From Rhizoclosmatium globosum (lineage: Eukaryota; Chytridiomycota; Chytridiomycetes; Chytridiales; Chytriomycetaceae), in contig MCGO01000017.1 in the NCBI GenBank assembly GCA_002104985.1, positions 496,001-560,000 on the forward strand: DNA of 64,000 bases. Reading direction: 5' to 3'. Under the pieces are notes generated by a model. It saw nothing but the letters and a program-made list of their open reading frames with translations. It made no database searches and was not told the origin of the DNA. Below are positions 1 to 40,215 of this stretch, piece after piece (positions within the stretch are counted from its first letter, which is position 1; every line of letters starts with the position of its first letter). The translations under genes and the position numbers were made by a program.

Positions 1-660
1 TTGAGTGTGTTGTGGTGACTAGTGTACTCACGTTTACACAGATATGCCAGCACCTTCAAAATCTACGAAGAGTATCAAAAACAACTACGAGGGAAAGCTC
101 TGCAAATTTGGAGACGAATGGAGGTAAGTTGAGTGTGTTGTGGTGACTAGTGTACTCACGTTTTTACACAGATATGCCAGCACCTTCGAAATCTACGAAG
201 AGTATCAAAACAACTACAAGGGAAAGCTGTGCGAGTTTGGAGGCGAATGGAGGTAAGTTGAGTGTGTTGTGGTGACTAGTGTACTCACGTTTTACACAGA
301 ATTGCCAGCACCTTCGAAATCTACGGAGAGTATCAAAACAACTACGAGGGAAAGCTCTGCAAATTTGGAGGCGAATGGAGGTAAGTTGAGTGTGTTGTGG
401 TGACTAGTGTACTCACGTTTTACACAGATATGCCAGCACCTTCGAAATCTACGAAGAGTATCAAAACAACTACAAGGGAAAGCTCTGCAAATTTGGAGAC
501 GAATGGAGGTGAGTTGAGTGTGTTGTGGTGACTAGTGTACTCACCTTTTACACAGATATGCCAGCACCTTGAAAATCTACGAAGAGTATCAAAACAACTA
601 CAAGGGAAAGCTCTGCAAATTTGGAGACGAATGGAGGTGAGTTCAGTGTGTTGCTTTTGG
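1..660 (+). repeat. Tandem array of five exon-intron units, period about 128 bp
   Basis: Five near-identical units follow one another. Each can be read as a 46-48 nt intron starting GTAAGTTGAG (GTGAGTTGAG in later copies) and ending TTTACACAG, followed by an 81-nt exon. The exon is 27 codons with the same phase at both ends (AG before the donor, A after the acceptor, joined as Arg), so any number of copies splices in frame. The peptide begins YASTFEIYEEYQNN and ends LCKFGDEW; I do not recognise the family. Copies differ by a few substitutions and small indels, which break frame in some. Decayed single copies recur at about 8340-8540, 9530-9690 and 10675-10740. The array runs off the left edge, so the parent gene is not seen. 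Reading it as exons is inference from splice signals and frame; a non-coding minisatellite is the alternative. Confidence 0.7.
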
Positions 661-8334: not shown

Positions 8335-11300
8335 GAGATTAGATTCGACACAAAGTATCGATACAGCTACGAGGGAATGCTCTGCGGGTTTGGAGGATAA
8401 TAGAGGTAAGACGATTGTGTTGAGGTGACCGGTGTACTCATGCTTTACACAGATATGCCAGCAACGTCGAATTCAACGGAGAGGATCGAAACAACTATGA
8501 GGAAACGCTCTGCAAGTTTGGAGGTAAATGGAGGTAAGATGAGTGTATTGTGATGAAGTAAGTACTCAACTCCACATTCCCTTTGCCCTACAGCTCTTAT
8601 CGCCTTCAACTTTCAGCCGCATTCTTTCATAACAATAGAGAAAACCTGAGTAGAATTCAAGGGTCGCGCTGTGTCTGTGTCAATTGATTAGATTGGTCAG
8701 TTTGCGCACAACACAACTGTACCTCCAATCCTTGACGACGTTGGCCCACATTTCCTACACGCCTCCTTTGAATCCCATTCGATTGATTGCGCTTGATTTC
8801 AGTGTTGGGAAGGGCTTTTTGGTGGAGTCAGGTTTTGGATGTTTTTGCGAATGAATAGAAGTGCTCTTCCTCATCATAACTCTCGGTTTTTATTTGATGA
8901 AAAGCCTTTTGCTGGCCACCGTCAGAACCCAACGTGGGGATTTTCAGTAATTCGGAAAGACCATTTTCTTTACTTAAGGTATGTTCCAAAAACCCCTCCG
9001 CCGCCGCCTCAATAATCCATCTATTTCAAAACAAATTTGAGCAAAAGATGCAAATGCATATCACCATATTGCAATTCAAGATGGAGGGACAGACTTGATT
9101 TTTTGACGACATGGCGTCATTTGACGTAAACTGAGGTGGGGACAGACGGACAGACAAACTGAGCTTTGGTTAGGTCCTCGGATTGCTTTCCTTTATTTAT
9201 TTTATTACCGTTGAATTCTACATGTGGACTCCATAAGATAAGCAATGCATAAGGAAGTCCCTTGGATATCATTAGCTATACATTAGGAAATCCCTTGGAT
9301 GTCCATTGTTTCTTATGTTGTTCTGGAAGTATGAAATAGTATAACAGGACGACCAGTAATGAAGGCGAAAGTGAAAAGGAGAGGAATGCTGGAAGAAAAA
9401 GAAGAAATAGAAGTTGTACTTTCTACGAGTTTTACATCTATTACTTTCGCGATCCAAAACTACTGCGGCTGCCTTTCCTTTCTGTTTTAAGATTTGCTTG
9501 TGATAAATGTTTTGAATTTTACAAAGAGTACAATTAGGAAACGCTCTGCAAGTTTGGAGGAGAATGGAGGTAAGTTGAGTGTGTTGAGGTGACTAGTGCA
9601 CTCACGTTTACTCAGAGACGCCAGCACCGTCGAATCTACATAGAGTATCGACACAACTACGAGGAAACGATCTGCAAGTTTGGAGATGAATGGAGGTAAG
9701 ATGAGTGTGTTGTGATGAAATAAGTACTCAACTCCACATTCCCTTTGCCCCACCGCTCCTATCGTCTTCAACTTTCGGCCGCATTCAATCCTAATAATAG
9801 AGAAGGCCTGAGTAGAATTTAAGGGTCGCGCTGTGTCCGTGGCAATTGATTAGATTGGTCAGTTTGCGCACAACACAACCGTACCTCCAATCCTTGACGA
9901 CATTGGCCCACATTTCCTACACGCCTCTTTGAATCCCATTCAATCGATTGCGCTTGATATCTGTGTTGGGAAAGGCTTTTTGGTGGAGTCAGGTTTTGGA
10001 TGTTTTTGCGAATGAATAGAACTCTTTTCCCTTATGAGAAACATTGGTTTTTATTGGATAAACGTAATAGCAGCTTACTTCTCAAGAGCTGGACGATTTG
10101 ATAATTGCTCTAATCGCAAGAGCGAAATTCTTTTTTTAAGGTACGTCTCACAAACTCGGCCGCCGCCGCCTCCGAAATCGATCAAATAGCAAATAAAAAT
10201 GAAAGAAAAGTGCGCGCAATTGTCACCTACCTATGGTCCAAGATGGAGGGACGGACTTGGATTGTTGGAGATGGGAACGCGATTGGGGCAAAAGTGAGGA
10301 GGTTACGGACAGACGGACAGACAAACGAAGCTTTGGTTAGGTCTCGGATTTTTTTATTTCTTCTTCTATTACCATTGAATTCTACATGTGGACTCCATAG
10401 GACTTAGCGATACATTAGGGAGTTCCTTGAATATCTATTGTTTATTAGTTGTTCTGGAAGTATGAAAAGAACACGATTCCGTCGCGATCCACATCAACTG
10501 CAACTGCCTTTCTTTTCTGTTTTAAGATTCGCTTGTGATAGTCTTGGAGAATAGTGGTGTCCTGGAAATTAATGTAAGGCATCCAAGAAGTTTGGTCCTT
10601 AGGAAGGTTCTTCCATTGAACTAAGTATACATTCGCGCCGTCAATTTCTTGATGCTTGAGAATATCTGCTTTAAATTTTACAAAGAGTATCAATACGCCC
10701 ACGAGGAAACGCTCGGCAAGTTTGGAGGAGAATGGAGGTAAGTTGAGTGTGTTGTGATGAAGTAAGTACTCAACTCCACATTCCCTTCGCCCCACAGCTC
10801 CTATCGTCTTCAACTTTCGGCCGCATTCTTTCCTAATAATAGAGAAGGCCTGAGTAGAATTTAAGGGTCGCGCTGTGTCCGTGTCAATTGATTAGATTGG
10901 TCAGTTTGCGCACAACACAACCATACCTCCAATCCTTGACAATGTTGGCCCACATTTCCTACACGCCTCCTTTGAATCCCATTTGATCGATTGCGCTTGA
11001 TTTCAGTGTTGGGAAGGGCTTTTTGGTGGGTCAGGTTTTGGATATTTTTGCGAATGAATAGAAGTGCTCTTCCTCATCATAACTCTCGGTTTTTATTTGA
11101 TGAAAAGCTTTTCGTTGGCCACCGCCAGAACCCAACGTGGGGATTTTCAGTAATTCGCAAAGACCATTTTCTTTAGTTAAGGTATGTTCCAAAAACCCCT
11201 CCGCCGCCGCCTCAATAATCCATCAATTTCAAAATAAATTTGCGCAAAAGATGCAAATGAATATCACCATTTTATATTCAAGATGGAGGGACAGGCTTGA

Positions 11301-11506: not shown

Positions 11507-14500
11507 ATGTCGTCGACCACACCGCCGCCGCCGCCACCGTCGCGCATTCCGCAAGCCACGGGTTCGAACCACCGCGGCGGACGAGTCGGGGCGCTTGTCG
11601 CGGCCTTCAACACGGCGGCCCAGTCGGATGAGTCGCCGCCAATCACCCGCCAAAAGCCAAAGCCGCAGAAGCTGACTAAAGAGTCGTACGCCACAACGGC
11701 GGAGTCATTTGCATTTCCGCGAGTGGCGCCTGGCTCGTCGTCCGCAACAACTGGTACTGGTACTGGTACTACTCGGGCTGTCGATATGGCGAGGTACTTG
11801 CGTCCCCCACTCTATCCCACGCTCCTAGCACATGCTAATGCCTTGTCGCCAGAGCAAAAACCGCTCCTGCGAAGCCGAAGCTGGCTGCCGCACTCTCGCG
11901 AACACATTGAAACCGTTTCGGATCTCAACATCAACAACAAACAGCCATACAAGTCCCCTTATTCATTCGGTCCCATCCCGCAAGGCAAAGGCCCTGCCTC
12001 TCCCACCTCTCCCAAACGCACCTCCATTGTCTCCAATGCACTTCTTCTGATGCCCCTCCTCCTTCTCTTGTCTCCTCCTCTGCTGGCAGCAACAACAAGA
12101 ATACCCCTGGCGCTGGTTACGTCAGTCCCTATGCGTACCGTCCTTCCTCTCGTCTCAGAAAAGAAGATGTCGTTTCGACGGATGATGCTGGTGCTCCCAT
12201 CGTTTTGACTTCAGACAATGTGAGGAGGAATGGCTCAAATTCTTCTTCTGGGGATGGTACCAGTACTGCCGTCGATCTGCAGTCTTCTTCTAAACGTGGA
12301 TCGCCTCGTTCTTCCAACGATGGGTCGGGTGTGTATATTTATTGATTGTTGGACGAAGCCGGAGTGTAGTGATTGAGAAGCGAGCAATGAGCGGAACTCG
12401 ATACTGTCAGGCGAATTATTGAGCGCAGCAAATAATATTTGGTGAAGCACTTGCGTGAGAGTCGCACGAGCGTAACCCTTGATCTTCAGCACGAAAGCAG
12501 AAGGAAATTCCGTCTCTCTTGAAGCTTATTTGTCTTCGTGAAGGAGAGAATGAGCGAAGCCTTTATTCAACGCAAACCCTCGAGTACTAACAAATTAAAA
12601 TAATAGAATCCTCAGCCGTCCCTCGGCGAGTACGTAAAGCTTCTTTGATTCTGTCTACTTCCATCACTCCTCAACAAAAGCCACAATGGCGGTACGCCGG
12701 TCCACAAACTACTTCCGCACCTGTTGCTGCGACTACAACATCAACTGCTCCACGTGTTCTATACAAAGCCGTGTCCACTGTGAAACCACGTGCAACATCA
12801 CCAACTCCTGTCAAATCACCCTCTACTGGAACTGCTTACACTAGTACCGTTTCTGGAATCACATCACGGCAAAAATCACCATCGCAGCACGTAACCAGCT
12901 GGCCAAAACAAATTCGGCAGGCGGAGCCACTGCACAGCGACCTGGAAGCAGTGTTGGCACCAACAATAGCAAGAAACTTAACATGACACCTACAACAATC
13001 CGCGTTCCATCCAAGAAAGGAGCGACTCAAGATGGTCGGGCGACCCGCTTGGGCGATCTGTTATCACACCAGCACCAACTCCACTCCCCCCACCAATGGG
13101 CAAGAGTCCAAGCGGTACAGCGATGCAAAGAACCAAGAGTTCCAAGACTACTGTTCGTATTGGGCCTGCAACTGGTGCCAAGAAAGTGTCTCCTGCGACT
13201 ATTGCCGCAAAGGAAGTACTTGAAGAGGCTGTTGCTGCTGCTTTGTCGACTTCTTCTGTTGATATTCCTACGGTAATTACACCAGCCAAGACGGAAGATT
13301 CTGTTGCGATTCCTGTTGCACCTGTGGCTGTCGAAGAAAGTCATTTCTGAGAAAGTTGAAGTAACAGCGATTGCGGTTGTAAAGAAGAACAGGATATTGT
13401 CAGCTCTGTGGTTGAAGATGTTGCGTCCAAAGCCTGTGGATCAAGTCCAAGAAGTGTTTCCGTTGATTCAATTAGCGTCCTGCGATTGAGCTTCTGCGAT
13501 GGAAGTCGATGTTGTGGAGAAAGTGACTGAAGAAACTGTTTTGTTCAAGAGACTGTTGAAATTTGATATCCCTGTTCCTGTAGTGGAGGAGTCGGTTGTG
13601 ATCAAGACTGACGATGTGATGCCTGCGAAACAGTTGCTGTTCCAGAGCCGTTTGTTGATAAATGGACGTTTTGGTTGAAGAGGAGGAACCAGAGGAAGAA
13701 GTCAAACCGGTGGTAGTGGAGACTGTTCCGTTGTTGAGGAGTCCGTTTCAGTTCCTACTATTATTACAGATGATGTGCCTGCCGAAGCTGTCACTGTTCC
13801 TGAGCCATTCGTCGACAAAATGGAAGTGTTGATGGAAGAAGATGAAGACGAAGTGGCAGTCGATGTTCCTGCACCTGTAGCTGACGTGACCGTTTCTGCC
13901 GATGTTTCCACCGTTGACACTATTGTTCCGCCAGTGGAAGAGAAATCTGGATTGGGACTACGAATGGATGCACTTATGGAAGAGGACGAAGAAGATGAAA
14001 GCGACACTCCTCGCGTTGATGTTATTCGACCTTCCAACGACAGAATGATGAACGATGAATCTATGGATTTGAGTGACTCGACTGGTGTCCTGAGGAACGT
14101 GTTTCATTGCAGGAGTTAATGGTTGACCAACAGAAGGCGGAAGAACAGACTATTCCTGTGGAGCGAGTCTCACTTCAAGACTTGATGGAGGAAGACGAGG
14201 AGATGACGGAGCAAACTGTTCCTGTTCCATCTACTAGTTCTTTAGATCACTTCCTTACTGAGCGTCATGTGCCAGTGGAACGCATTACTCTTGAGCAACT
14301 TATGACAAGTCATGAAATTATGAGCACCACCTCATCTGGAATGACTAGCGCCAACACCGAAATGATGTTGACTCCCACGCCTCCAACACCTCCTCCCGCC
14401 ATCCCCAGCATCACCGATTGCAAGCCATTCTTTATTCAAGACTTAAGCTTGTACGAACAGTTGGAACTGGTTCTTTTGGTCGTGTCCATCTTGCACACCA

Positions 14501-29682: not shown

Positions 29683-31781
29683 TCATGCAAACTCCACGAG
29701 CAAAACACCTTGCAAGTGATCATAGACACTTTCACAATCCTTCAAACTACCAGTGTACCCACTAACCCTCAAAGCCACTCCTCCAGCAACAGGCACACTG
29801 TCACTTGTTTCGTCACCCTCATCGTCCTCAATCTCAGATTCCTCCAAATCAACTTCCTCAAACAACGAATCACGATCCAGTTCCTTCGCCTCCTTCTGCT
29901 TTTTCTTGATTAAACCACCACTGCTCCGTTCTCGATCAAGCCTCATCCAAACACTCCACGCTTCACGATGATATTCTGCAAGACGGTCTTTTCGTTGTGT
30001 GAAGGAACATCGAGCATCAAGAGAATGTCGACTCTGTGTGCTACTTTATCGAGCTTTGTGATGGCTGCTGTGAGTGCAGTTTGGCCGGGTGTTGTGTTTT
30101 CAGCTGGGTTTGGGGAGAGGAGTGTGATGATGACTTGTTGAATGCTTTTTGACGTAAATGTGATTAGATTCAGGGACGGTCAGACAATATTGACAGTTAC
30201 CCCACACACGCATCTCCTCGGGACATGACAAGTAATTTCGTACGGCACAGGAATCAAAACAGGATTCAAGGGGACTTGCAATATTTGAAGGTACTGTCGT
30301 GTTCAAAACTACTCCATTTGATTTTGATCCCATGGCACTCATGACTTCATCTTCAAATCTCATGAGTTCCATCCAACGACCACGGGAATACATGCTGGGA
30401 CTTCGTTTCACTCTGCCAAGTAAATCGCCATGGAATGTTTTACTGACACCTAAACGGATGCATTCGACTGTGCAACCAGAGTTTCCGAAAAAAAGTCCGC
30501 AGTTTTCTGTAAAGAGAACTTGGGGGGGATGATGTTTCTTTGTGTTTGGCTGTGTTGTTGATGCAAAATGGTTTCGTTTTGGAGTGTACTGGATTGAGCG
30601 CGGCAGGGGTGTTGATTGCTGTGATTTGAAAGTGTTTAATAGATGTGATACTAGCAGAATAGAGTATCAGCTTTGGCTGACGCAATTGAATTCCATTCGC
30701 TATTCTATAGGCTTTCCCTAACGAGAACGACCTCCGCTCGTGGCCTCAGTGCCCAATTCTCTTCCCAGAGACTGTTCACTGCACTCACTATTCCGTAAGC
30801 GTCGTCTGACTCCACTCGTGATCTCGCTACGCACTCATACTGTCACTTCATTTAAAAGGAACTATATGGTACCTTTCTGGAAGGAGTCCTGCTGTACAGC
30901 GAACCCAGAGGAGCAGAATCTGATGGAGAATCCAAAGAAGAAGGAGTAATAGATAGATCAGGAAAGAAGAGAGATATCTCATTGATGTGTTCAACAGGAA
31001 TCACAAGGAATGAGGAAGTGGAACTAGTGGCAGTGCCAACGGCTGAAAGCATAGCAGTTGGTTTATGAAGCGAGCCAAAGTTCCAAGGGCGTAATTGAAT
31101 GAGAGAGGTGGCAGCATCGGTAGAGTATTCGTTGTCAATGAGGAAACGGCCAGTCCAACGTCCAAGAGCAGCACCAGGGGCAGTGGGCCAGGACAGGTCC
31201 AGGGAGACAGAGCTTCGAGACAGGGCATGGTACGCACAGTCTCGCCACATGCGGCTGACTCGAGAGAGACGCTGAATGGCAGGTGGCTGGATGTAGCCCA
31301 GGACAGCAGCAAGGATGTGTGGCGAAGAGAGGACCGAGGAGGTAAGCGAGGAAGAGCGGGGCAGAATCAGAATCGAGCCCTCCCTCCGAGGCTGTCGCAC
31401 AGTGATTGGCTGAGCAGGAATCGGATACGGGTAGTACTCGTCTGTGCCCGGGCCCAGGCCCAGGTCAAACTGATCAGAGCGGGAATGGGAAGGCGCCATC
31501 GCCGCCCTGAGCCCCGGATTCCGCTCAAACAGAATTGGATCAATCTCGTCGTAGTCGTAGGCGGCCTCGGGACTCCAGCACGGAAACACAATTGAACTTG
31601 TCTTTCGCAGCAAACCAACGAACGTCTCATCGGCCTCGTCCAAGTCGCCTAAACCACTGCCACTGCCACGTGTCACTTTCTCGTACACTCGCACTTTCGA
31701 CGGGCGTCCGCTGCGGCCGCCAACGAGAACAACCTTGGTCGACCCGAGGGTTTCTTCAACGAGACTCTCTTCAAAGTTCAT
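29683..31781 (-). CDS. F-box-like protein with uncharacterised C-terminus
   Basis: The start MNFEESLVEETLG at 31781 gives about 300 uninterrupted residues. A disordered first half is followed by an F-box-like helix bundle near 31330-31240 (SPHILAAVLGYIQPPAIQRL then SRVSRMWRDCAYHAL), expected to bind Skp1 in an SCF ubiquitin ligase. A WTGRFLIDNE...PWNFGSLHKP segment comes next. An intron at 30872-30705 is filled by an introner-like repeat. After it, coding potential continues through frame slips (QPKLILYSAS, ENCGLFFGNSGCTVECIRLG, RGRWMELMRFEDEV) to an acidic tail and LQGVLLVEFA at 29683. No family was recognised for the C-terminal part, and it could belong to a second gene. Confidence 0.55.
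30705..30872 (-). repeat. Introner-like repeat, copy A, in the F-box gene
   Basis: On the minus strand a GTACCAT donor follows TPSRK and the acceptor is CCTATAG, giving 168 nt. The interior contains GTAGCGAGATCACGAGTGGA, then AATAGTGAGTGCAGTGAAC, and GAGGCCACGAGCGGAGGTC; the same blocks in the same order and sense orientation occur in copy B. The donor is less certain because the downstream frame is off by one base. Confidence 0.6.
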
Positions 31782-31988
31782 GTTCACTGACTCAGACGAG
31801 ATGCCAACGGCGGCGTGGGCATAGGCTCCACTCGGGCAGGCCGGGGCTGCGGGTACGGGTCAAACGATAGCATTTCAAAGAGCGTTTCTTGGAGGAAGTG
31901 AGTGACACACAAGGTTCGACTGAAAATCCAAATCAAGTGCGCTGAACACCAACTGGATTGATTTTATTCCTCGTTTTTAGTTCCCATT

Positions 31989-33239
31989 TTATTCCAATAA
32001 TCGTCTGAATTCAGGACGGATCGCCCACTGCGGGCAGCTTAGCAGTTCTTTCTTCTCTTCAACAGTGAGAATAATGCGTGGATCCTCCAACAAACATGTG
32101 AGATTCTCTACGTTTTTCACGTATTGTAAAACCAAAACGCACTGTCAGTTGGATCCAAATATTCCAACAAAATTTTGACAACACTTGCTTCTGCATACCT
32201 GGATGCTTTGATCAGAAAGTCACACGATGGCTGTACTCGAGAGTCTTCCAAAAGCGCTTTTACGAGCTCGATATCCCCATAGATACAAGATTGTTCAAAG
32301 TAATCTCCAAGTGTTGGATCCACGCGGCCATCTTCAAGTAAAAGTTTGACAACTCCAACGTGAGAATGTTTAACAGCTATTGCGAATGCGTATTCGTCAT
32401 CGGCACAAGGGTCCACACCAGGAATCTTTAGCAATATATCCACGACATCAACATGCCCTCTACTTGCCGCGAGTTGCAGTGCAAGGCTGTCGCGAGCTGA
32501 AGGATCAACACCAGGAACTGCAACAACCTCTTGATAATATGACCGCGCCCATATCTTGCAGAATATATAAAAGCAGCATTCTCTTCATCTGCAGCATTTG
32601 TTCGGCATCCAACAAGAGTCTCTCAACCACACCCACATGTCCAAACCGTGCAGCATTCCGTAAAGCCACATTCAAAGGAACAGACGATTCCAACAATAAG
32701 TCAGAACGACTCAATACCAAATCAACAACATCCGTCCATCCAGCGCGAGAAGCCCACACAAGTGCTCGATGGTTCTGAACATTCACGTTCACGCCATCTG
32801 TGAATAAGACTTGCATCACCTTGAAAGCTCGGTGCGGAGATAAATTCCATCGTAGCGACCACATTAAGTTGCGAGGATTGTTGTCCCAGTATCGGCCTAC
32901 ACCTTCCCATTCATCAGAGGCAAGGATAGTTCCATAGATAGCAGCTTGGTAGGACAATGGTAGATGCGGCCAATGATGCTTTCCAAAGAGTTTCACGTCC
33001 TTGAGAAACTGCCAGATGGGATATCCTGCCCATGTGGAAGCGCCTTGTATCAGCTTGGCCTTGAACTGCCAGTGGTACGAAACATGCTTTTTGGCGAAAG
33101 AGAGGTGATCGAGGACTTGTTTCAGGTGTTTGGTTGCAAGTCCAATTTGAGCTAGTTCCGAGTCGATTGGGACTTGGATTAGGATGGCTTGAATAAGTTC
33201 GATGGGAAGCGATTCAATCATTATTCTTGAATCTCTCAT
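31989..33239 (-). CDS. F-box protein with ankyrin repeats
   Basis: The start MRDSRIMIESLPIELIQAIL at 33239 is an F-box helix pattern. A linker with many aromatic residues follows. Ankyrin repeats then run from about 32800, recognisable as RALVWASRAGWTDVVDLVL, NVALRNAARFGHVGVVERLL, LAASRGHVDVVDILL, FAIAVKHSHVGVVKLLLEDG, SCIYGDIELVKALLED and LIKASRYAEASVVKILLEY. The probable C-terminus, after a slip near 32115, is NLTCLLEDPRI...WAIRPEFRRLLE, stopping at 31989. Two further slips lie near 32590 and 32500. The likely role is substrate binding in an SCF ubiquitin ligase; the substrate is unknown. Confidence 0.78.
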
Positions 33240-33342
33240 TGAACAACAAAACCCAACAACACCAAATATGTAATAAAAGGTATACACAACCCAACAATGA
33301 AATAAGACAAATGTTAACACATACAACAAAAAAAAATGAAAT

Positions 33343-36300
33343 CTAATTCGAAATCTCCCTCTTTCGTGAAGGTGATCTACGTCTAGTAGGCGCAGCCGCC
33401 GCCTGTCCATCCCCATCTTCACCCCTATCTCCTCGACGTCTTCTTTCCCTGCTACCCGCCCTCTCCCCAACATCGCTCCCGCTTGCATTCGCGTCACTCA
33501 TCTTTCTTGCCATCCATTGTTGTCGCCGTTCTTCCAAACTAGAACCGGGCTTCCAACTACTCCAACAGGACTCCCAGGTCCTCCTCCCTCTCCCTTCATT
33601 TCAGCCCATTTCTTTCTTCGCTCAGCACTGCGTTCCGCTGCACCTGCTGACGTAAATGATTCGGCATCGCTTGAAGGTTGCCGTGTCATGGATGGCGGTT
33701 CCACGGATTAGGTGTGTCTGCTGCATTTGCGTTGGCAGGTTTCTTGCCAAATAGCCAACCGAGTACAGTCTTCTTTTCGCCGTTTGCACCTGCTTGCTGC
33801 TGTTGCTGTTGCTGCTGCTGCTGCGGAGGTGCTTGAGATGATTGTGGTCCTGGCGATTGCTGTACTTGAGGGGACTGCTCGCTTGATGCAACTTGCGCAG
33901 GTGCTGGAGTGGGTGTAGGTGGCAGTGGAAGGTGAAGTTGGTGACGCAAGAGTAGTAGGATCGCGTGGTCCAGGTGTATTGGATCGTCGAATCGCTGTTC
34001 CAGCTTGAGAAACTACAGTGGTAACCTTCTTGAGCGAAGAACTTGACGCCATTGCTTTCATAATACGTCCAGAAGTAGTGGTCGCCTGTGGGGTTTGCTG
34101 CGGTGTTGCCTGATTTTGAGGTGTTTGCGGAGTCTGTGGTGAGGATGGTGTTTGAGGAGATGGTGGTGCAGGTGAGTCAAATCTGTCTGATTGCTGGCCA
34201 GCAGCAGGTGGGTCAGACGCGTTTGACTTTGCCGAGGGTGGACCGACAGGTGAAACGACACTGGGAGGAGAAGGAAGTGGTGTTGTAGATGCGGGAAGAG
34301 GTGTAGTCGATGAAGGAACAGGAGTTGTAGGAGGAACGGGAGTTGTTGTTTGCGGAGATTCTTTGTTATCCTTATTTCCACCTCCGTTCCACAATCGTTT
34401 CAAAAATCCTTGCTTTTGCACAGGGGACCCATCAGATGCATTGCCTTGTTCATCTCCGCTTGGCAAAGGACCCGGCGACTCCTTAACTGACTTTTCGGAG
34501 GGATTCTTGGTCATGACCAATCCACCAGGAACAACAGGCAACTGTTTCTGGATGTTTGAATGCAATAAGTACGAAACCTTCACTGAACAGTAAATTCAGA
34601 CTCACCTCATCAGCTTCCTTCACACTTTTAACACTCTTTGCGAAGAACTCTTGGCCAGAGGAACACCGCCTGATGGTGGTGATGTGGCTTCCTTAACAGG
34701 CCCCTTTCCGGCAGAAGATGAAGGACTTGATGCAAAAGCATCAGACGCTTTCGAGCGAACAAGGCAGCCAACATATTCGGTTTCGCCTCCTTTTCAAGAA
34801 ATCAGTTTGAACAACGACATTAAAAATTCAATCAAACTCTACCTTCACAGAAGGCTCCTTTTCCTTCTCTCTCGCCTCTCTCCGCTCAAAGCCTCATCCG
34901 CAACTTCAACCCGCTCCTCAATAAACCAATTCTTCTCTTCAAGAGCCTTCAACTTCCTAAACACACGTTCCCATCCTTCCCAACCGCTCGTACAAACTTT
35001 TTTCTTCTCAGAGCCGCAAAGAACGCGTTCAACTCGTCGTCTCGGCTTCAAGCATCCGCCACATGTCCTCCATCATACTCTTTTTGAGGGAAATCGCCAT
35101 GGAGTGCACTTTGGAGAAGGCTGCACGAGATTTGCGCTTGTGGTCTGTGGTTGTGATGAGGAGACTTGCTTGCTTTTCAAGGTCGTCAAAGAGGGTCTTA
35201 GTTGACGTCCGTTGCCGCTACCGCCAAAGTGGGACTGATTTGGGGGCGTTCGGGGCAGTGGTTGGGGTGGATGGGTCGAGGAGGAGTGTGTCTTCGAGGG
35301 CTTCGGTTTCGGCTTCGAGGGCGTCCCATAAGTTTTGCTTCTCTTTCTTCATTTGATCGCGTTGGACGACGGAGGGGATATACTTTTTCGCGGCCCTGGT
35401 GTTTTGAAGTGATTTTTCTTTTGGTGAGAGAACGGGAGGTGGTGGAAGAGATCGTTCGCGTGGACTAATAGGAGACTTTGTGGAACGTGGGCGGCGTGAA
35501 GATGTAGTTCGTTTGGTCGCGACTGATTCGGGCTCACTCTCTGATTCTGCTTGAGGGATTTGAAGTGGCGCTGGAGCCGGAGCTGGAGTAACTGGAGTAG
35601 GTGGAGGTGATGGTTCCTTTTCTGGCTGTGGTGGTGCGTTCGCAGCTTCCAGTTTCTTGGCGGCGCTTGCCCAATTAAACTTCTTTACAACGACAGGAGG
35701 TGGAATTGGAGCCTCTGGAGTAGAATGCGGCCGCCCGCTTGCAATCATGCTATTGAGATTACTGATTGTGGCGCTATCAACCAGAAGTGAAGACTGACGA
35801 GGTTTGCGTTGCTTTCGGCGTGATTCATCATCAGCGTCGATAGCGGGTGGTGGTGGTGCACGATTTCCAGGCCGACCTCCGCTTTCTGGTCCACGAGGAG
35901 GACGAGGGCGTGCGATTGGAGCCGGAGGCGACAAGGAAGCACCACGAGATGAAGTACGTGTTCCTCGCGAGCTAGTTGATTCCATCGAAAGGGGTCGAGG
36001 AGCAGGTTTCTGCTGCTTTCCACGTGGTTTAGATTGAGATCGAGCAGGTCGTCGTTCAGGGCTTGATTCTCGTGACGAAGGTCCAGCATTCGCCAAAGCA
36101 TAAGCTAACGCTTCAGCAGCCTGCTTTTCGCGTTCAATCTTTCTTTGCTTCTCCAAAGCTTCCTGCCTCTCCATTTCTTCTTGCTCTTCGAGCTCCAACC
36201 TCTGTCTCTCCAAATCGCGTTGAATTTCCAGCTCCTTGAGTCGTTCGGCCTCTCGTTGCTGTTTCTCAATCTCTTTTTGTCTTTCCATTTCTCTTCGTTC

Positions 36301-38304
36301 TGCCTCTTGCTGCTTTCTCTTCTGCTCCTCCTATTCATTACAATTAGATACCATTACGGCGGAATACGTATTACAACATACCACAGCAGCCTTCTTCTCC
36401 GCCAACTTCTTTTCCATGTCCCACACCTCCAAATCACTACTATTTCTCTTGACTGACCCCCGCCTCTTTGCATTCGCACCTTTTCCCTCCAGCTTGGCCA
36501 TTACGTCCGCAGAAGCACCTCCCATTTCATCATCATCATTATTGTCCGCAGAGTCCTTTTCGTCATCATCGGAATCAACAACCCGTTTTTGCTTTTGAGG
36601 AGCACTACCCGGCTTCCTACTCGCCCATCCTTTCACGTTTGCCGTTGGTGGTGGTGCAGGAGTCTTTGCTTTGACGGGGGATTTGATGGACTTGGCGGAA
36701 ACAGGTTCAGGTTCTGAGTATCCATCGTCTGATCCAGAGTCCTCTTCTGCACTGCTGTTATCAAGAACGGCTGGACGAGGTGGAACGCGGCGTTCTACTT
36801 TAATTGGTGCATTGCCACCTCCACGTGGGCTTCCCAATTTCGCTGCAGATGTAGGATTGGATCGGGGACTGCGGGCAGGTGCATCACTATCGTCAGAATC
36901 TGAATTGATGGGGCGTCGGGCTGATTTTGGTGATGCCTGTTGTTTTGGGGAGCGTGGGGATTCCTACAATTTCCATTAGACCGATGGCATTTCTCTTCAG
37001 GAGTGATGCAACTTCGTCTGACGGCGTTAAGATACGCTCGAGGCCTCGACTCACTTCACTTCGCGAAAAACCGTTCGCTCCGCTCACTATCTATCCAACC
37101 AGTTTCGCCTGAAGGCATCGAGTTCCGCTCGTGACCTCGCTTCACACTTCGCTTCGCGAAAGATCGTTCGCTTCGGCTCACCCTTTTGATGTTCGCTCCA
37201 CTCACTATCGAGACTACCTTCCCCTTGAAGGAATTGACCTCCGCTCGTGGCCTCGCTTCACAGAACCTTCGCTCACACAACGACACACACCTCTTCCGAA
37301 ACATCAGAATCTTCTTGGTATGAGGAAACCCGTTGAGTCTTCTTTGCCGAGGAAGAAGAAGCGGGAAGAGTAGAAGAAGGAATAGCGGAGACAGGTTGAT
37401 ATTTAGCATGTTGAGGCTGTTTCCATTTTGAAGTTGCTGTAGTTGTTGTTGCAGGTGCCTTTTTTGAAGAGGAAGCAGGTGAGGAGAGAGAGGTGGGAGA
37501 GGTAGGGAGGTGGGAGAGATTGGCGAATTGACATCTTCTTCATCTGAGTCATCGTAATAACTAACGGGTTTGGGCTTCTGTTGATGTTTGGTAGTTGGAG
37601 ATGTAATTGGTTTTGAAGATTTGGCTGATGATTGAACGGGAGGAGGGGCACGACGAGGAGGAGGAGCGGGATCATCGTCGCTGACATCTGAATCATCGTC
37701 ATCTGAATCAGCAGCGTACTTCCGTTGTTGTGGCTTTGATGATTTCGAAGGTTGTGGGGCTGGGGCAGCCGGTCTCTTTGACTGTTGTTGTTGGCCGGGG
37801 AGCCCTATCGCCTGACGAGTAATTGTCTGAGAAGTCGTCTTTGTCGATTGTTTGTGGTTGAGTAGCGGGTTTCTTTGTTGGCAGTTGCCGTCTCTGCGGC
37901 GGGTCTCTGCTTCTGCTTCTGCTTCTGGATCTGGATGCGTCTGAGGAAGCGTCTCTCGCGGGAACAGGTCTCTTCTGCGACTGCGAGTGCGAGTGCGACT
38001 GCGAACGAGGCGGCGGCGGCGGGTCCGAGTTGTCCTCTGAGTCATCGCCAGTGCCCGTGCTTCCAATCGTTGATCTGAGTTGGCCCAGGGGAATAGCGCC
38101 CTTTGGCACCTTTGTGTCCTTGGTGATGATTGGCCCGCTGATGACGAGTTCGCGGTCCTTGGCCTTGCTCTTCTTCTTCGGAAGCAGCTTCTTTAGGGCG
38201 GCCGCGGCGGACTTTGGGCTCTTTGACGCCGGTGGTGGTGGTGGTGAGTCGCTGGCGTCGGAGTCGGGCGGCGACGAGGGCGGTCGGCGCTGCTGCTTCT
38301 TCAT
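33343..38304 (-). CDS. Large intrinsically disordered protein with a coiled-coil segment
   Basis: The start MKKQQRRPPSSPPDSDASDS at 38304 opens a protein of more than 1,400 codons that is mostly Pro, Ser, Gln and charged residues. A Glu/Arg/Lys-rich coiled coil lies at about 36340-36100 (EAERLKELEIQRDLERQRLE). A second helical patch is near 35000 (KLKALEEKNWFIEERVEVA). A run of ten Gln is near 33810, preceding KKTVLGWLFGKKP, and the protein ends in an Arg-rich tail (RRRSPSRKREISN). Exons join cleanly across introns at 37290-36964 (contains an introner-like repeat), 36388-36339 and 34605-34542 (EADE to LPVVPGG). Several frame slips are present. No domain family was recognised. It could be two genes, but the 34605-34542 intron argues for continuity. 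Confidence 0.6.
36964..37290 (-). repeat. Introner-like repeat, copy B, a 327-nt intron in the disordered-protein gene
   Basis: The minus-strand intron starts GTGTGTGTCG right after DSDVSEE and ends AATTGTAG before ESPRSPKQQ; both junctions are phase 0. A CTAAT branch-like site precedes the acceptor. The interior is about two and a half copies of one unit containing GAAGCGAGGCCACGAGCGGA, ATAGTGAGTGGAGCGAAC and TTTCGCGAAGCGAAGTGTG. It is the longest and most regular copy in the window. Confidence 0.75.
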
Positions 38305-38641: not shown

Positions 38642-40215
38642 ATGGCTGAGTTAGACCGATCTTTCCGCCGCCTCTCTTTCTCGAATCCTGTTCCTCCAGT
38701 GCCCCGATCTCATCAAGAATGCAATGACGAAGGAGTAGCACTGATGGAGACTTCAGCAACTGGTCTTTCCACAACGAATCAACTCAACTCCAACCACCAC
38801 CTTGACCAACCCATTCCCAACTGCATCCTTCCCGCCCACATTCTCTTCCTCATCTTCAGCCACATTCATCCATCTTCAGTCCTTCGCTTTCGTCGTGTCT
38901 CCCGCTCTCTCAACTCTTTGTTGATGTCTCCCGCCTTTGCATCTTCCTGCCTCGTTCGTTTCGTCACACCGCAGTCAATGTCTGGCCTCAAGGCTCTCAT
39001 GCTCAAGCAACGAAAACGTATTAAGGCTGTGGATCCTCTAGGCCCAATTCCAGAGTTTGATTCGTTTACAAGTTGAGTTCCCAGAGTGTAAAAGGTCACT
39101 GGCGGAGTTCCTATCATCCGGTGAAGCTGATTCGGACAGTGAACGAAGCGGACAGTGAGCGAAGTGAACATCAAAATAGTGATCGAAGCGATCGGGGTTT
39201 CGCGCAGCGAAGTGTGAAGCGAGGCGGAGCCTTGTAAATAGTGAGCGAAGCGAACATTCTTTCGAGAAGCTAGTCATTAGTTTAGAGCACTATTGCACAA
39301 TTGGAGATTATCAATCCTAAAGAATCTCATACACGCGTATTATTTACAACCAACTCTATCTGCAGGAATCTGGTTCCTGTTTCCACAAACATTCCAAACC
39401 ACATACCTCACGTTAGAACACTCCCTCCTCACACAACAAAAAATATCATGGCCCTCCCAAAACCTACACGGCCTTTTACCCACCACCCTCTCCCTATGCA
39501 CATCCCTCACCACCCTCGACCTCTCCGAAAACAACCTCCACGGCCCAATACCAAACACCTTCAGCGCCCTCAAAAACCTCCGTGAACTTCGTCTGTCATC
39601 AAACCCACTCACAGGGCCTATTCCATCATCCCTCGGATCCTTACACCGCCTCCAAACCCTTTTCATCTCCCTGACAAACATCACAGGCCCACTACCTCCC
39701 TCCCTCGGGTCCCTCACGTCTCTCCAGAAACTATATATTTGCGCAAATGTTCGTCTTGTTTCGGAGATTCCGAGGGAATACGGCGCGTTGAGGGAGTGTC
39801 GCGAGTTTGTGGTTAGTGGGAATAGGTTGTTTGGGGAAGTGCCTGTGGAGCTTGCTGATATGACACACTTGCATACGTTGAGAGTGGTATGAATAGGTTG
39901 GTGGGTGGTGTACCCGCACAAGTTGTGGACGTTGTGGAAGCGAATGGAGGGGTTGTTGATTCACGAGGTTGTTGGAATATGTTGGAGGTCAATAAAACTC
40001 TCTTCTTGCATTCAACAGTTTCAACTCAAAAACGATTTGGTGTTTTTATAAGTTTCATGTGCATTCAGCCGTCCAACGATTTATTTGAAACTATGTTTAA
40101 TCCCTATGTTTTCACATTGTACACCCTTATTTCTAACTGTTCTTTTCCAGACTACAGCCAGCAAATCAAAACCTTGGCTTTTCGGATTACTCTCATTAAC
40201 ATTGAAATTAAGTAA
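38642..40215 (+). CDS. F-box protein with leucine-rich repeats
   Basis: The start MAELDRSFRRLSFSNP is followed by an F-box near 38820 (CILPAHILFLIFSHIHPSSV then LRFRRVSRSLNSLL). After a slip near 39072 and an intron at 39139-39280 (an introner-like repeat, both sides phase 0, KLIRT to FRALLHNW), plant-like LRRs run from about 39440: LCTSLTTLDLSENNLHGPIP, LKNLRELRLSSNPLTGPIP, LHRLQTLFISLTNITGPLP and LTSLQKLYICANVRLVSEIP. After a slip at 39890 it continues with NRLVGGVPAQV. The true stop after about 39990 is uncertain; the end given is the last in-frame stop. It probably recognises substrate for an SCF ligase. A related gene begins at the right edge of the window. Confidence 0.72.
39139..39280 (+). 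repeat. Introner-like repeat, copy C, in the F-box/LRR gene
   Basis: A 142-nt intron with donor GTGAACGAAG and acceptor TCATTAG, phase 0 on both sides. The interior contains AGTGAGCGAAGTGAAC, TTTCGCGCAGCGAAGTGTG, AAGCGAGGCGGAGCC and AATAGTGAGCGAAGCGAAC, the same blocks as copy B in the same orientation relative to transcription. An alternative donor GTGAGCGAAG lies 16 nt further in. Confidence 0.65.

Follow-up and report, generated by a model that had tools for sequence, protein, structure and literature searches.

It is not settled how introns originate or how they become longer, and four introns on one stretch of DNA from a chytrid, one of the zoosporic fungi, raise the question in a concrete form: did the repeats that these introns carry make them, or did they enter introns that were already there? 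The stretch (the window) comprises 64,000 nucleotides, bases 496001 to 560000 of contig 79 (C79; contigs are denoted by C and repeat loci by L) in a 56.9-Mb, 420-contig eukaryote assembly, and it contains four related repeats in four introns, each in sense with its gene. The original prediction took these repeats for introners, mobile elements that make new introns. We found that the family is a real, widespread, sense-oriented intron repeat that has been shuffled recently, and the reading that we favor, tentatively and at somewhat less than even confidence, is that a sense-only repeat inserted next to the 5′ splice site of short introns that were already present and then underwent tandem growth and local homogenization.

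The family extends far beyond the window. A 15-base motif, GTGAGCGNAGCGAAC, had 216 exact matches (117 plus 99) in the assembly versus 0 for the reversed pattern, which ruled out a chance origin of the repeats, and the presence of copies on many contigs and haplotypes ruled out an assembly artefact. The 100 motif matches listed corresponded to about 72 places, alleles being unmerged, and the longest window copy, used as a similarity query, returned at least 48 matches (30 scored candidates). Many copies form tandem arrays with periods of 88 to 188 nt, reaching 0.65 kb at L010 and 1.0 kb at L007; the consensus unit of the repeat profile is about 100 nt long, and a young subfamily carries a 36-nt unit at its 5′ end. 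Within one chromosome, copies of this younger subfamily that lie in introns of separate genes were 94 to 99% alike. Coding repeats in the sense direction were ruled out, since the sense frames of the arrays were broken by stops in the translations read and the joined proteins matched families without the repeats. Antisense frames over the arrays were long and open at L047, L018, L013, L057, and L048, the longest reaching 329 amino acids at L047 with flanks included. As a separate observation, arrays often occurred as outward-pointing pairs 1 to 2 kb apart, seemingly in divergent genes (L007, L008, L019, and the window repeats at 36964 and 39139).

Placement inside genes and sense direction were examined at 22 sites drawn from the motif list in list order with gaps, skipping places already examined and some others; two of these sites, L039 and L043, represent the same locus as alleles. 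Reading placed flanking coding sequence on the strand of the repeat at all 22 sites and on both sides at 20. Coding support was strong at sites with kinases, an HMG box, dynamin, a Sac1-type phosphatase, or a carboxypeptidase; it came from frames only at others (for example, L033, L037, L045, and L061), while L035 had a named domain upstream only (NDUFB8) and L063 was weak. The longest open frame ran opposite to the repeat at two of eight loci checked (L061 and L063). A strand-blind coding test, from which 15 of 58 clusters had been removed beforehand as allele copies, placed coding sequence on the strand of the repeat at 38 of 43 loci, on both flanks at 30 of them. For the five exceptions (L059, L055, L042, L033, and L014), sense orientation was indicated by CDC20 and patatin domains at two, by downstream zinc fingers at a third, and by frames only at the other two.

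Among the 23 spliced joins scanned, 16 had a Pfam domain running across the junction. These domains were an HMG box, two kinases, the RBM39 linker, MCM_N, DEAD (by 5 residues), Tim44, MitMem_reg, patatin, Trs120, CN_hydrolase, PP2C, E1-E2 ATPase, the CDC20 WD40, Mgm101, and Syja_N. The seven remaining joins had a domain elsewhere (L032, L043, L058, and L010) or no match (L056, L057, and L045). The 5′ module of the young subfamily was read at 21 of 25 candidate places, leaving out C171, C389:18843, C141, and C146:329125, and at all 21 it started within a gene on the coding strand. No intergenic or antisense copy was met among the loci judged, a sample that covers a minority of the approximately 216 motif sites; within it, the claim that no copy lies outside an intron held. 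L010 also contains, at 1 to 2191 and near the repeat-bearing gene, a 126-bp satellite in 17 copies.

To show what the introns share, 28 of them, including three allele rows, were compared all against all (allele pairs uncounted, L010 and L032 not included). At an E value of 1e-6, 24 of the 28 matched the intron of another gene, and c12, c30, L036, and L043 did not; together with the domains across the joins, this bore out the claim of one family in introns of many unrelated genes. The likeness ended 43 to 176 nt short of the acceptor in every one of the 23 introns with a known 3′ end (three of these being allele rows); at L046, L047, and L054, the acceptor lay beyond the sequence read. In 13 young copies, the mean pairwise score was 48.0 over positions +10 to +69 versus 12.5 for shuffled sequences, and 12.8 over the last 60 nt versus 12.6 for shuffled sequences.

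At the donor side, likeness within the young subfamily began 0 to 15 nt from the donor, except at L055 (54 nt), where about 50 nt of other intron sequence stands ahead of the element. Approximate matching placed the start of the young module about 6 to 48 nt after the donor at 14 loci, and at 6 to 16 nt in 12 of them (L015 unmeasured). Among the closest copies, the first shared letters are TACGAGTGAG or ACGAGTGAG, preceded by dissimilar donor-side letters: the introns of the MCM4, Dbp5-like, and eIF3f-like genes have cores identical at up to 139 of 141 positions and differ in the 9 to 10 letters on the donor side. Directly before the branch site of the MCM4 intron, at L048 680 to 730, there is an inverted repeat, ATTGTGTCAT..ATGACACAAT. 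At L057, the shared block occupies positions 10 to 443 of 486, and the intron minus the block is 52 nt long, equal to the median of 35 control introns chosen by a 40- to 75-nt filter. The joined proteins show no interruption, which means that exons cannot be the source of the unshared intron ends; these ends are most simply read as remains of an older intron.

The family also bears marks of recent change. The assembly contains several haplotypes: C68 is a second copy of the window region, 100% identical to the C79 intron copies over the stretches compared, and C58 is a third, differing haplotype, 90 to 98.5% alike over the aligned pieces, whereas the other repeat loci occur on two or three contigs each, mostly 93 to 97% alike. 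An identical C68 together with a differing C58 possibly points to a polyploid assembly or a mixture. The C161 and C163 loci are alleles of C389, on the basis of exon likeness for three genes and of spacing for a fourth, and were grouped with C389 in a comparison of 107-nt cores (L024 has no core). The seven same-chromosome pairs were 0.94 to 0.99 alike, with a mean of 0.967, versus 0.855 for the 84 other pairs (permutation P of 0.0002), and the Dbp5-type copy on C161 matched the eIF3f-type copy on C389 at 138 of 141 positions versus 133 of 142 for its own allele. Because same-chromosome cores are the most alike and the Dbp5-type copy resembles the eIF3f-type copy more closely than it does its own allele, spread or conversion appears to have been local and recent at the DNA level, in line with the recent spread that had been proposed. 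Haplotypes also differed in length, by about −203 nt (L035) and −122 nt (L012) to +72 nt (L058). The NDUFB8 exon of L035 is followed, at 843 to 1227, by a stretch of short-period repeat that reads SECSEC...; on the allele C410, this stretch is shorter by about 203 nt.

Within the window, the blocks common to the four copies are present, GT and AG exist at the limits first given for all four introns, and two of the four pairs of limits stood (12329 to 12606 and 36964 to 37290). The intron at 12329 to 12606 on the plus strand carries an old, diverged copy (profile match at 12366 to 12501). By its reading frames it runs from GTGTGT to AATAG in phase 1, with the branch site TACTAAC, and its C58 allele is 98% alike. 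The acceptor at 12615 is an alternative, ranked first by the automatic splice-limit ranking, with 12606 second; a Pfam scan of the upstream open reading frame (ORF) gave no hit. Paralogues of the gene around 11900 to 12490 are found at C79:479554-480141 and C9:141564-142154, 96% alike and ending in the middle of the repeat in this intron. The minus-strand intron at 36964 to 37290, in phase 0 by its frames, holds about three repeat units (profile match at 37007 to 37273), and its C58 allele has a different donor-side sequence and a rearranged array.

The other two introns required new limits. For the copy first delimited as 30705 to 30872, the acceptor at 30705 led to an in-frame stop, while CACAG|CAATC joins phase 0 to phase 0, giving a minus-strand intron of 254 nt at 30619 to 30872 (frames and allele; profile match at 30697 to 30849). 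It interrupts the gene for an F-box-like protein, whose upstream exon at 30873 to 31781 on the minus strand is an ORF with a Pfam F-box-like match at an E value of 0.0006, below the curated cut-off. Chytrid homologues of the joined protein aligned on both sides of the junction; the six protein matches came from Siphonaria sp. JEL0065, Obelidium mucronatum, Physocladia obscura, and Chytriomyces, and Siphonaria belongs to the Chytriomycetaceae of the Chytridiomycota. The copy first delimited as 39139 to 39280 lies in a plus-strand intron at 39121 to 39365 (245 nt, phase 1; frames and C58 haplotype), before an LRR exon, the LRR being found by Pfam in the ORF at 39281 to 39889. Donor 39121 and acceptor 39365 are workable in both haplotypes, donor 39139 joined to acceptor 39365 meets a TGA in the other haplotype, and 39281 to 39365 is argued to be noncoding, since the haplotypes differ there by 10 nt in length. 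In both haplotypes, the reading frame of the upstream exon is broken near 39066, which makes this gene model the weakest of the four.

With the corrected limits, the phases agree in all four introns (1, 0, 0, and 1) instead of the three first counted, and the introns, at 245 to 327 nt versus the control median of 52 nt, are unusually long, as had been predicted. These corrections at 30619 to 30872 and 39121 to 39365 rest on hand-read frames and alignment with the C58 haplotype. For three of the four window introns, and for the intron of a P4-ATPase gene, the automatic ranking placed other limits first. The hand-read limits did not lead for 30619 to 30872 and 36964 to 37290, and for 39121 to 39365 the same acceptor was chosen with a different donor. 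The ranking thus gave no independent support to the hand reading, and for this reason we relied on reading frames, alleles, and Pfam; the automatic gene finder needed heavy intron penalties.

Other repeats occur in and near the window. A tandem array with a 142-bp unit runs from 44736 to about 50800 in about 42 copies (its end is estimated), and a 128-bp tandem array enters from upstream, covering window positions 1 to 653 and 7973 to 10000 of L025, the next stretch upstream, with diverged copies at 8360 to 10778 of the window. Between 8470 and 11273 of the window, one stretch occurs three times at a spacing of about 1.1 kb.

How does the family compare with known systems? With secondary insertions of transposable elements, or satellites, in introns, a class filtered out by the introner pipeline, it has in common that likeness covers only part of the intron; unlike them, it is strictly sense and donor-proximal and has no intergenic copies in the sample, properties that are not usual for secondary intron insertions. 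A literature search, which reached few subscription papers, found no account of such a family in chytrids. The published systems below are compared on the basis of portions of the papers cited. The published definition of introners asks for likeness that extends almost to the two splice boundaries, which serves to keep out secondary insertions (Gozashti et al. 2022, PMC9860276). Our family shares with them one sequence family in introns of many unrelated genes, an aquatic lineage, and recent copies, but it differs in lacking likeness to the 3′ splice site, carrying no acceptor, having no general target-site duplication, and forming tandem arrays within introns. The introner-like elements of Dothideomycetes are spliceosomal introns in near-identical copies (Collemare et al. 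2015, PMC4457414); these too are fungal intron-bound repeats, some 98 to 99% alike, although they are whole introns and the chytrid family shares the interior only and belongs to another phylum. Ascomycete introner-like families are said to lack terminal inverted repeats and target-site duplications (PMC12403724). In the [D1,2] stwintrons of Xylariales, the donor is split between nucleotides 1 and 2, and two spliceable introns are removed by consecutive splicing (PMC12403724). There, as in our family, fungi have propagated intronic sequence that sits inside another intron, close to its donor, whereas in the DNA sequence the chytrid insert stands after the donor and not within it. No chytrid introner is described in the consulted portion of PMC8476143.

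The family is not classed here as an introner family, because likeness fails at the 3′ splice site, a tested defining feature. The introner signature of the original prediction thus stood for placement and sense and not for intron-making. In the tentatively favored reading, a noncoding repeat would enter existing short spliceosomal introns in sense only, downstream of the 5′ splice site and upstream of the branch site, bringing no acceptor and, in the closest copies at least, no donor, so that the splice sites of the host intron would stay. Inside the intron, the element would grow and shrink by tandem duplication of its units, and local copying or gene conversion would maintain the similarity of copies in neighboring genes. 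We infer both the copying step and the prior existence of the host introns. Either guidance of insertion by the nascent transcript or selective loss of other insertions would probably underlie the sense orientation and donor-proximal position, and we do not choose between the two.

Several observations weigh against this reading. Four young introns (L022, L024, L046, and L059) match another intron to the first intron base, so that a carried donor is possible there, and L057 alone leaves a remainder of normal length, the unshared ends of the other young introns totaling 69 to 173 nt (without L046); on these two grounds the favored reading is weakened and an origin from true introners strengthened. 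No repeat-free allele was found among 14 arrays read in at least two haplotypes or among 13 others assessed from the distance between their flanks (L040 and 12 of 17 flank pairs; a second copy was missing for eight of nine genes and 5 of 17 flank pairs), and insertion was thus not caught in the act, since all located alleles carry the repeat. The P4-ATPase intron at DG|ETN has no counterpart in eight paralogue matches (about five loci; two with internal stops), and as these paralogues run unbroken across DG|ETN, that intron would be a later gain, by whatever route. The first letters of exon 2 are GT for 7 of 24 element introns versus 1 of 35 controls. At L014, GTACGATAC/GTATGATAC form a near-repeat, the starts of intron and exon agreeing at eight of nine positions, although such a maximum arose in 12% of permutations. 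Finally, secondary insertion together with chance does not readily account for a sample without intergenic copies.

These observations bear most directly on the strongest alternative, an unlikely but serious one, in which true introners made these introns long ago, the ends have since diverged under splicing constraint, and the interiors were homogenized by later conversion and tandem growth. Sense-only, intron-only placement is the classic introner pattern, and the P4-ATPase paralogues, the GT starts of exon 2, the L014 near-repeat, the likeness to the first intron base, and the want of an empty allele all fit it. It is at odds with the terminal 60 nt of the 13 young copies, which are unrelated even though the interiors of some pairs are up to 99% alike, and with the absence of a general target duplication: identity between intron start and exon start in 24 introns averaged 2.6 of 9 positions versus 2.4 in controls (permutation value of 0.86). 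A DNA-transposon introner with target duplication as a general rule was ruled out by this lack of excess. Nor was inverted likeness detected between or within the 28 introns at an E value of 1e-3, apart from a palindrome in L036, in a search that misses short inverted ends.

The more specific proposal of a mobile element that homes to existing introns is doubtful. Such an element would land in sense only, directly downstream of the 5′ splice site, presumably under the guidance of the nascent transcript or of the splicing machinery, and would spread through genes without breaking proteins or making introns.

An intronic satellite seems less probable again. On that account, a sequence already present in some introns expanded in tandem and spread by ectopic gene conversion without any mobile element, its sense being kept by same-direction pairing. 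It agrees with the tandem arrays of 88- to 188-nt period, the strong likeness of neighbors, the change in length between haplotypes, and a likeness between loci that equals or exceeds that between alleles; conversion, however, needs a homologous seed in the recipient introns, yet the intron ends are unrelated, and the constant start of the young subfamily (TACGAGTGAG) resembles the end of an element. A structured or functional RNA element (snoRNA-like or a splicing-helper hairpin) kept in introns by selection, as the sense-only placement and hairpin-like words seen by eye in the units might suggest, was rejected as very improbable, since the first 300 nt of 26 introns folded no more stably than shuffled sequences (mean z of 0.05) and an Rfam search of five loci at the gathering threshold recovered three tRNAs but no family at the repeats.

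A family with the outward signs of an introner, in which the host splice sites are seemingly untouched, separates making introns from living in introns, and it indicates that sense-only, intron-only repeats alone do not prove intron gain. As protein records exist for related chytrids, the question should allow direct comparison. If it is true that insertion is guided to the 5′ splice site, the family would offer a clean system for DNA that is directed by splicing or transcription.

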